A stretch of DNA of 56,921 nucleotides, taken from Bacteroidales bacterium (GTDB lineage Bacteria > Bacteroidota > Bacteroidia > Bacteroidales > Marinilabiliaceae). The notes under the pieces are model-generated. The model did no database searches. It was not told the origin of the DNA and saw nothing but the letters and a program-made list of their open reading frames with translations. The stretch spans positions 48,275 through 105,195 of the forward strand of contig SUWW01000015.1 of the NCBI GenBank assembly GCA_015061285.1, given 5' to 3'. Positions 37,927 through 40,647 of the stretch are shown piece by piece. How positions within the stretch are numbered: position 1 is the stretch's first letter; every line of letters starts with the position of its first letter. A program made the translations under genes and the position numbers.

Positions 37927-40647
37927 ATGAAAAGATTAATCTTATCTGTCTTAGCGGTTTTTATGTCCATTTGTTCAATGGCGCAAGACCCGAATTTCCA
38001 CATTTATCTCTGTTTCGGACAGTCGAACATGGAGGGAAATGCCAAAATTGAAGATGTTGACTATAAGAATGTTGATCCACGTTTCAAGATGATGGCTGCC
38101 GTCGATTTCCCAGAGCAGGGACGCACGATGGGGCAGTGGTACACCGCAGTACCGCCACTCTGTCGCCCGGGTACGGGACTAACGCCAGTCGATTATTTCG
38201 GTCGTACCATGGTTAAGCATCTGCCTCAAGATGTGTCGGTTGGCGTTATCAACGTAGCCATTGGTGGCTGCAAGATTCAAGCCTTCATGACCGACAGCAT
38301 CGCTGAATATGCAAAGAATTGCCCAGGTTGGATGGTAGGTATGCTCAAGGCCTACGACAATAATCCGTACAAGCGCCTTGTCGATATGGCCAAGTTGGCT
38401 CAGAAAGACGGCGTCATCAAGGGTATACTTATTCATCAGGGCGAATCGAACAACGGCGACGAGTTCTGGCTTCAGCAGGTAAAGAGCGTTTACGAGCATC
38501 TTTGTGCCGACCTTAACCTCGACCCTGCGCAGGTGCCTCTGCTTGCTGGCGAAACGGTGCAGGCCGGTGGCGAAGGTCAGTGCATTTTGCACAATAAGGT
38601 CATTGCCAAATTGCCACAAGTCATTGCCAATGCGCATGTTATCTCGTCAAGCGGTTGCACCAATGCTTTCGATAAGCTCCATTTCAACGCAGCTGGCTAT
38701 CGCGAACTTGGCTCGCGCTATGCTGCCAAAATGCTTAGTCTGCAGGGCATAAATATTTATGGCAATGCTCAGCACACAGTGGAGAGTCCCGACGGTAAAA
38801 TAAAAGTGACAGTCTCTTCTGCCGAAGGTTTTCCAACTTACTCTGTTAGTTGCAATGGTCAGACCGTCATCGAATCATCGGCACTTGGCTTGCAGACCAA
38901 CATTGGCAACTTCACCAGCGGCATGAAACTTAGTGATGAGTCGCTTGTGAAGAATATCGACGAACACTATTCGCTTCGCAACATCAAGCAAAGCAACGTA
39001 CACTACGAAGCAAAGTCAATGACAGTCGATTTTAGCAAAGATGGCGAAAACCGTTTTGCCGTTGAGTTTCGCGTAAGCAACCGCGATGTGGCTTTTCGTT
39101 ATATAGTATATACCAAGAAAGATACTCGCGTGTGTGTTGTCGAAAACGAAGCAACAGCATTTAATTTGCCAGCACAAACAACAACTTTCCTCTGTCCGCA
39201 AGCCAAGCCAATGGGCGGATTTGCTCGCACATCGCCAAGCTACGAGACATCTTACACCGTCGATGAGCCTACGGGCAAGAACGGCTGGGGCGAGGGCTAC
39301 ACTTTCCCATGCCTCTTCAAAACGAACAACGGCATTTGGGCTCTCATTAGCGAGACGGGCACCGATGGCGGCTACGTTGGTTGCCGACTTATCAACGAGC
39401 ACGATGGCAATTATCGCATCGGTTTCCCACAAAAGGGCGAGATGAATGGTGTCGGCTCAACATCGGCTGCAATGTCGCTTCCCGCACAGACTCCTTGGCG
39501 CACCATAACTATTGGCGGTCTGAATAATATTGTAGAAACAACCGTTCCGTTCGACGTTACCGAGGCTAAATACAAGGCTTCGCAAGAGTATGTATATGGA
39601 AAAGGTTCGTGGAGCTGGATTATCAAGATGGACCCAAGTTGCAACTTCGACGAGCAGAAACGCTACATCGACTTTTCGGCAGCAATGGGCTATCAGAGCG
39701 TACTTATCGATGCATTTTGGGACACTCAGATTGGTTACGACCGCATTGCCGAACTTGCTCGCTATGGCAAGGAGAAGGGCGTCGCACTCTTCCTTTGGTA
39801 CAACTCAAATGGCTCGTGGAACGATGCTCCTCAGTCGCCACTTGGCAAGATGAACAACGCACGCATCCGTCGCGCTGAAATGAAATGGATGCACGACAAT
39901 GGCATACGTGGCATCAAGGTCGATTTCTTCGGTGGCGATAAGCAACCTATGATGCAACTCTACGAAGACATTCTTGCCGATGCCAACGACTTCGGATTGC
40001 TCGTTATCTTCCATGGCTGCACATTGCCACGTGGCTGGGAAAAGATGTATCCTAACTATGCAGCAAGCGAAGCCGTTCTCGCTTCAGAAAACTTGCATTT
40101 TGGTCAGGGTGCGTGCGACAATGAGGCGTTCAATGCTTGCCTACATCCGTTTATTCGCAACACTGTAGGCTCGATGGACTTCGGCGGTTCGGCGCTCAAC
40201 AAACGCTATAGTGCCGACAATCAGCATGGCACCATTCGCCGCACAAGCGATGTCTTTGCCCTTGCTACAGCCGTTCTGTTCCAAAGTGCCGTTCAGCATT
40301 TTGCACTTGCTCCCAACAATTTGACTGATGCTCCTTCTTGGGCAATCGACTTCATGAAGCAGGTTCCAACCACTTGGGATGAGGTGAAATTTATAGATGG
40401 TTATCCCGGCAAATATGTTGTTTTGGCACGCCGCAGTGGCGATAAATGGTACGTTGTAGGTATCAATGCCGAAAACAAAACTCAAAATATGACAATCACA
40501 TTGCCAATGTTTGAAAACAACGACATTGTAAATCTTTATAGCGACGATGCACAATTGAACGGGAATGTCAAAGATTTGAAAATCAATAAGAAAAAACAGG
40601 TAAAAATCTCTATTCCACAAAACGGTGGTGTGGTGATTGTGAAATGA
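37927..40647 (+). CDS. CE6-GH97 fusion: acetyl esterase plus retaining alpha-glycosidase
   Basis: The start at 37927 gives a signal peptide ([20 protein letters not shown]); an upstream ATG at 37876 lies within the previous gene. Residues about 20-285 form a CE6/SASA esterase with S33 in [23 protein letters not shown] and [11 protein letters not shown]. This part is closely related to the esterase at 30747. Residues about 290-906 form a complete GH97, with D666 in [10 protein letters not shown] and [10 protein letters not shown], related to the GH97 at 33676. The protein should remove acetate and an alpha-linked sugar, perhaps galactose, from neighbouring positions on xylan. It is the third gene of a tight GH97-GH31-CE6/GH97 operon. 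Confidence 0.9.

Follow-up and report, generated by a model that had tools for sequence, protein, structure and literature searches.

Multicatalytic enzymes with a CE6 acetyl xylan esterase are already known in the xylan polysaccharide utilisation loci (PULs) of Bacteroidota. The closest described are the CE6-CE1 proteins of B. ovatus (BoCE6-CE1, BACOVA_03435) and F. johnsoniae (FjCE6-CE1), which join an acetyl xylan esterase and a feruloyl esterase; on corn cob the B. ovatus protein beat its separated halves, the F. johnsoniae protein did not (PMC7110780). The esterase-glycosidase CE15-GH8 (BeCE15A-Rex8A) also resides in a xylan PUL and has a short linker, as the protein described here, but belongs to other families, and no direct synergy was seen in it; several multicatalytic enzymes are reported to lack synergy, which is no general property of such fusions (PMC8417218). 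On the glycosidase side, Bt_3661 is described as a beta-L-arabinopyranosidase/alpha-galactosidase (PMC10086023), and B. ovatus PUL-XylL, a corn xylan locus, encodes a GH31 alpha-xylosidase and a GH97 (BACOVA_03423) active on pNP-alpha-galactoside (PMC4491172). According to a review (PMC5708106), corn AcGAX bears alpha-L- and alpha-D-galactose, and in grass xylans acetyl groups decorate the backbone as well as O-2 of arabinofuranose; acetyl and alpha-galactose thus both occur on such xylans.

The protein analyzed here resembles the CE6-CE1 enzymes, being made up by an N-terminal CE6, which groups with theirs, and a second catalytic domain, and being encoded in a xylan locus of Bacteroidota. It differs in the partner, GH97 in place of CE1, and in a linker of about 14 residues. 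Its GH97 half is of the same retaining type as the GH97 of structure 5xfm, its nearest solved relative, and is likened by description to BACOVA_03423; both of these are described without an esterase, whereas the window protein has a CE6. GH97 as CE6 partner sets it apart from this precedent; searches of open-access text turned up no paper that names CE6-GH97.

The xylan-type locus

The window, a stretch of 56,921 nucleotides (C14:48275-105195), belongs to the genome of a rumen-type bacterium, 3.55 Mb in size and 99% complete. Among the best 80 of 487 matches the closest named relatives are two Bacteroidales metagenome-assembled genomes (MAGs), UBA3663 (94%) and, with a sheep rumen origin, RGIG6965 (93%). 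The locus around the fusion gene is of the xylan-utilisation type (Table 1): the SusC/D pairs, the xylanase, the debranching enzymes and the hybrid two-component system regulator by which such loci are recognized in Bacteroidota are all present. The locus is akin to B. ovatus PUL-XylL, both carrying a GH31 of the alpha-xylosidase kind and GH97. Four GH97 and eight SASA matches were monitored in the genome, two of the latter being equal-length frames on one contig, and the two domains are found together in frame 37927-40647 only.

Further frames of this genome deserve mention. The product of 3105-5381 is six-hairpin glycosidase-like (Bac_rhamnosid6H), the sole match to a solved structure being its C-terminal CBM-like part. 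A RhuM-family protein is encoded downstream of the locus on the minus strand (50617-51504). Elsewhere in the genome (C17, L067:3004-5673) a protein of 890 aa has SASA in its middle (residues 498-744), and long flanks with no Pfam match at E 0.001.

Table 1. Features of the window and of the CE6-GH97 gene (Pfam E-values computed on the whole 906-aa protein)
Feature	Position	Strand	Basis
Further GH31, nearest to alpha-xylosidase 7wj9, 445 bits	5392-8031		structure match
Hybrid two-component system regulator (HTCS)	8278..12288	-	locus content
Two SusC/SusD pairs	14309..24104	+	Pfam and locus content
GH10	25359..27677	+	Pfam
GH43-CBM6-Esterase (CE1-type)	27928..30399	+	Pfam
CBM4_9-like region and SASA/CE6 esterase	30723..32492	+	Pfam
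GH43	32523..33533	+	Pfam
Second GH97	33661..35538	+	Pfam
GH31, nearest solved relatives alpha-xylosidases	35538..37913	+	Pfam and structure matches
CE6-GH97 fusion gene, 906 aa	37927..40647	+	frame and Pfam matches
Putative type I signal peptide, aa 1-19, without lipobox cysteine	37927..37983	+	by eye
SASA/CE6 esterase domain, aa 24-270	37996..38736	+	Pfam SASA, E 2.2e-31
Ser33, predicted esterase nucleophile, in GQSNM	38023..38025	+	motif
Asp249-x-x-His252, predicted catalytic triad members, in DKLH	38671..38682	+	motif
Short linker, aa 271-284, about 14 residues	38737..38778	+	space between Pfam matches; junctions compared
GH97_N, aa 285-546	38779..39564	+	Pfam, E 8.5e-56
GH97 catalytic barrel (Glyco_hydro_97), aa 558-814	39598..40368	+	Pfam, E 1.2e-67
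Ala596, presumed specificity site	39712..39714	+	alignment: Asn in 5xfm, Glu in 3a24
Asp666, predicted nucleophile, in KVDF	39922..39924	+	motif and alignment
Glu721, predicted acid/base (presumed role)	40087..40089	+	alignment
GH97_C, aa 816-904	40372..40638	+	Pfam, E 4.3e-18
GH43-CBM6	40765..42270	+	Pfam

Catalytic residues and the sugar released

The gene is a single open frame on the + strand, from ATG 37927 to 40647, and encodes 906 aa; the start assigned mechanically to the frame is a TTG 51 bases 5' of this ATG. The four Pfam matches all exceed their curated cut-offs, and are therefore not due to chance. The first-pass annotation had seen here a full SASA/CE6 esterase and a full GH97 in one protein, and both are confirmed at these coordinates. 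An assembly artefact was considered and discarded, as CE6-GH97 recurs in 13 further sequences, one of which comes from a single-contig genome.

The esterase motifs GQSNM (S33), HQGESN and DKLHF (D249, H252) are all present in the window protein, and GQSNM, HQGESN and D-x-x-H are kept in 14/14 fusions. A SASA domain with Ser, Asp and His is the mark of CE6 acetyl xylan esterases, and the window fusion has it; CE6 is used here for Pfam SASA, a class wider than CAZy CE6, combined with grouping with the CE6 of SASA-Esterase proteins. In five of six fusion pairs analyzed by the Nei-Gojobori method dN/dS ranges from 0.02 to 0.13, in the CE6 and the GH97 half alike, the sixth pair being saturated and dS exceeding 1.4 in two of the other five. 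A degenerate esterase, also considered, is ruled out by the triad motifs, in the window as in 14/14 fusions, and by the low dN/dS. Both halves look catalytically intact and under selection, in agreement with the first-pass annotation as to the intactness.

The GH97 half has the three GH97 domains in order, as members of the family do. It features KVDF (D666), followed by H696-G697 where inverting enzymes have HE, and it lacks HHET. This combination, (K/M)(I/V)DF and HG without HHET, is given as the signature of retaining GH97 enzymes by Gloster et al. 2008 (PMC2670981). D666 aligns with an Asp in 3a24, and with a Gly in 5e1q, the entry name of which reads 'Retaining alpha-galactosidase'; the earlier description of D666 as a retaining-type residue is upheld. 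Glu721, presumably the acid/base, corresponds to a Glu in both solved relatives compared, and catalytic Asp and Glu are kept in 14/14 fusions. Two fusions, L164 (KSDF) and L165 (KADF), from genomes G1023 and G1122, deviate from (K/M)(I/V)DF, the Asp being kept. The window protein scores 195 bits against the NCBIfam equivalog NF053844 ('retaining alpha-galactosidase'), the cut-off of which is 800, and is for this reason not filed under it.

The solved structure closest to the window GH97 is 5xfm (760 bits), which we take to be BT3661, followed by 3a24 (133 bits). Residue 596 aligns with the presumed specificity site of BT3661, Asn338 (Glu361 in BT1871), which reportedly sets the sugar preference; the Asn338Ala change is said to raise galactosidase and to lower arabinopyranosidase efficiency. 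At this site 5xfm has Asn, the window protein Ala. Ala is found in 13/14 fusions, Asn in L158, and the 110 stand-alone relatives sharing at least 45% identity have Ala (100), Asn (8), Ser (1) or Cys (1). Ala in place of Asn or Glu favours alpha-D-galactose, if the reported effect of the change holds here. It is rather improbable that the GH97 half removes beta-L-arabinopyranose instead, or is dual-specific like BT3661: no other solved structure comes close to 5xfm, taken as BT3661 (760 bits vs. 133 for the next), the activities described for Bt_3661 include this one, and L158 keeps the Asn of 5xfm, but in 13/14 fusions the Asn is replaced by the very residue which reportedly shifts activity from arabinopyranose to galactose. 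The alpha-linked sugar of the first-pass annotation is less certain than worded there, the nearest solved relative being of a type with a reported double activity, beta-L-arabinopyranosidase and alpha-galactosidase.

The second GH97 of the window (33661-35538) has DAEW, the relatives of the fusion D-A/N-x-W, and features a Glu one position past the presumed specificity site, as do 13/13 distant GH97 rows compared. In a search for a B. ovatus counterpart of the window GH97s, no B. ovatus was found among the 10 matches listed of 75 records.

Distribution and origin of the fusion

Full CE6-GH97 fusions reside in 4/15 genomes of the genus of the window, and the same four are the carriers found among 71 genomes of the family. 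At least one of 393 genomes carries the fusion in the order sample, namely the window genome itself, and at least two of 395 in the phylum sample; the second match of the latter belongs to a genus in which 1/2 genomes, and to a family in which at least 3/299 genomes, have the fusion. Figures for the order, the phylum and the second family are lower bounds, the best 2 or 3 candidates being scored per genome. Among named loci, at least 9 of the best 80 (of 487 matches) are fused. Removal of duplicates leaves 14 distinct fusions (the window, L009, L075-L083, L158, L164 and L165), mostly from MAGs. The CE6-GH97 architecture is real, rare and recurrent. The objection foreseen in the first-pass annotation, a common fusion with an inactive esterase, does not apply, the fusion being rare and the esterase motifs present. 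A 1443-aa frame apparently shared in genus g7 was rejected as a further case, because made up by separate frames, GH43-CE6 (778 aa) and GH97 (649 aa), the latter starting 48 nt after the former.

The two halves were placed in trees of 41, 47 and 49 rows (CE6) and of 121, 50 and 52 rows (GH97). The 41-row CE6 tree covers alignments spanning at least 190 query residues and takes identical CE6 copies once; it omits L001-L008, L010, L056 and L057, and from both L055 and L075 an additional frame; the second CE6 of the window (30723-32492) stands outside the CE6 tree, its 73% identical L055 homologue inside. The 121-row GH97 tree is restricted to relatives with at least 45% identity, aligned over about 540 query residues or more, and omits L001-L008, L010, L016, L028-L031 and L055-L057, which are own places, duplicates or fragments. 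The 50-row tree uses 50 of 126 GH97 rows, the stand-alone ones among them being hand-picked, and the 52-row tree has two more.

In the 49-row tree the CE6 halves fall in four places, and well-supported branches force four changes. Group I comprises the window, L075, L076, L077, L009 and L078 (support 100/99), group II L079-L082 (86/70), group III L083, group IV L158, L164 and L165 (95/93). Group I is sister to the CE6 of two CE6-CE1 proteins (97/96). A single fusion clade is found in 0% of 200 bootstrap trees, and is rejected by the AU test (p=7e-5 for 11 fusions, p=3e-54 for 12). Group pairs were, for either half, named after tree inspection and with IV represented at that time by L158 alone. 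On CE6 they gave 7e-39 (I+II), 3e-4 (I+III), 6e-6 (II+III) and 2e-5 (II+IV); the weakest, I+IV (0.012) and III+IV (0.033), would be lost if corrected for six pairs. On the GH97 side one clade of 11 fusions (p=0.002) and I+II (0.003) are rejected; no rejection is obtained for II+III (0.19), for III+IV (0.20) or for a clade of group I (0.51, 0.13). The GH97 trees need 5 (121 rows), 6 (50 rows) and 7 changes (52 rows); in the last, the GH97 halves fall in seven places, and as few changes are reached in 1/500 label shuffles.

In our reading these placements point to two joinings of CE6 and GH97 at the least, and probably to four, the GH97 half having been exchanged further. One ancestral CE6-GH97 fusion, later split and subject to partner exchange, is less likely, and we hold it doubtful: the trees are unrooted, so that change counts cannot separate gain from loss, and GH97 leaves group I, II+III and III+IV unrejected, but one-clade trees are rejected for both halves, the junctions between CE6 and GH97 differ from group to group, and the CE6 sequences closest to groups I and II come with a CE1 partner, or with none named.

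Partners of the CE6 module and proposed role

Ten CE6-bearing proteins were scanned. SASA stands alone in two; the partners include a CE1-type Esterase, GH43 either with C2 or with CBM6, and an abhydrolase region accompanied by CBM4_9. The CE6-GH43-CBM6 proteins of L063, L064, L065 and L066 (four genomes, 740-760 aa, Pfam run on L063) belong to the same genus as the window and join the same CE6 module to a glycosidase, which is however GH43-CBM6. The homologue (73%) of the window CBM-CE6 protein encoded at L055:520-3492 is 991 aa long, and has an extra N-terminal abhydrolase region; it possibly features two esterases. In G647 (L162:1-5469) five consecutive frames resembling the window CE1-type esterase (29-35%) lie beside a CE6 protein.

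In G004 (L062), of the same genus, GH43 - GH97 - CE6-CE1 corresponds to GH43 - GH97 - GH31 - CE6-GH97 in the window, and in G008 and G009 CE6-GH97 directly follows the second GH97 gene. Among the best 80 of 487 matches, a homologue of a protein of the window locus is within reach in 8/9 fused vs. 47/71 non-fused loci, the remaining 24 non-fused GH97 loci, some of which are on short contigs, having none nearby; a CE6 frame is present in 13/71 non-fused loci. In L094, L097, L103 and L139, CE6 and GH97 occupy separate open frames with 3-9 nt between them. A stand-alone GH97 79% identical to that of the window (L084) lies outside such a locus, after two unrelated genes.

Computation gave the domain make-up, the catalytic residues, selection acting on either half, the content of the locus, the rarity of the fusion and its separate tree placements. 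From these we infer a periplasmic bifunctional xylan-debranching enzyme which would remove acetyl and alpha-D-galactosyl groups, and which would have arisen by shuffling of CE6 partners. We consider this reading probable as a whole, and both activities likely. The N-terminal CE6 would strip O-acetyl groups by a serine-esterase mechanism (Ser33/Asp249/His252), and the C-terminal GH97 would take off terminal alpha-D-galactosyl residues with retention, Asp666 acting as nucleophile and Glu721 as acid/base. Substrates may be acetylated, galactosylated glucuronoarabinoxylan oligosaccharides imported by the SusC/D pairs, on which the fusion would act beside GH31, GH43, CE1 and GH10 of the same locus. 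Joining might ensure that both steps occur on the same oligosaccharide and at a fixed ratio. The architecture would be among the results of a mobile CE6 module changing partners, and would have come about no fewer than two times, probably about four.

The same activities are compatible with a different reason for the fusion, joint export and fixed stoichiometry alone, the halves acting on unrelated xylan positions and gaining nothing from the link. This we regard as a serious possibility, if somewhat short of an even chance. It would fit the many partners of the CE6 module, CE6-CE1 following the same GH43-GH97 pair in L062, the closely spaced separate frames of L094, L097, L103 and L139, and the lack of intramolecular synergy in FjCE6-CE1 and several others (PMC8417218); yet the pair recurs in lineages placed apart, and B. 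ovatus CE6-CE1 is better than its separated halves (PMC7110780).

The specific decorated side chain proposed at the outset for the bifunctional enzyme meets a mixed outcome: the xylan-type locus, and acetyl and alpha-D-galactose known on such xylans, agree with it, and the many CE6 partners argue against one specific motif. Acetyl and sugar may plausibly lie on one side chain; given the variety of partners taken by the CE6 module, this is put forward as a hypothesis. Its strongest form, that the pair was joined independently about four times in Bacteroidota because it attacks one undescribed xylan motif in which acetyl and alpha-D-galactosyl shield each other, such as 2-O-acetylated arabinofuranose bearing galactose, or acetylated galactose, and that either enzyme would thus work poorly unless the other is near, seems unlikely to us. 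The repeated union of these two enzyme types, from different lineages, is natural evidence on which decorations of grass cell walls co-occur. Should the whole protein outperform a mix of its halves on corn fibre, an undescribed side chain would be indicated, and a tool for upgrading recalcitrant xylan gained; if it has no such advantage, this would show that an acetyl-esterase module is freely shuffled among partners in xylan loci.
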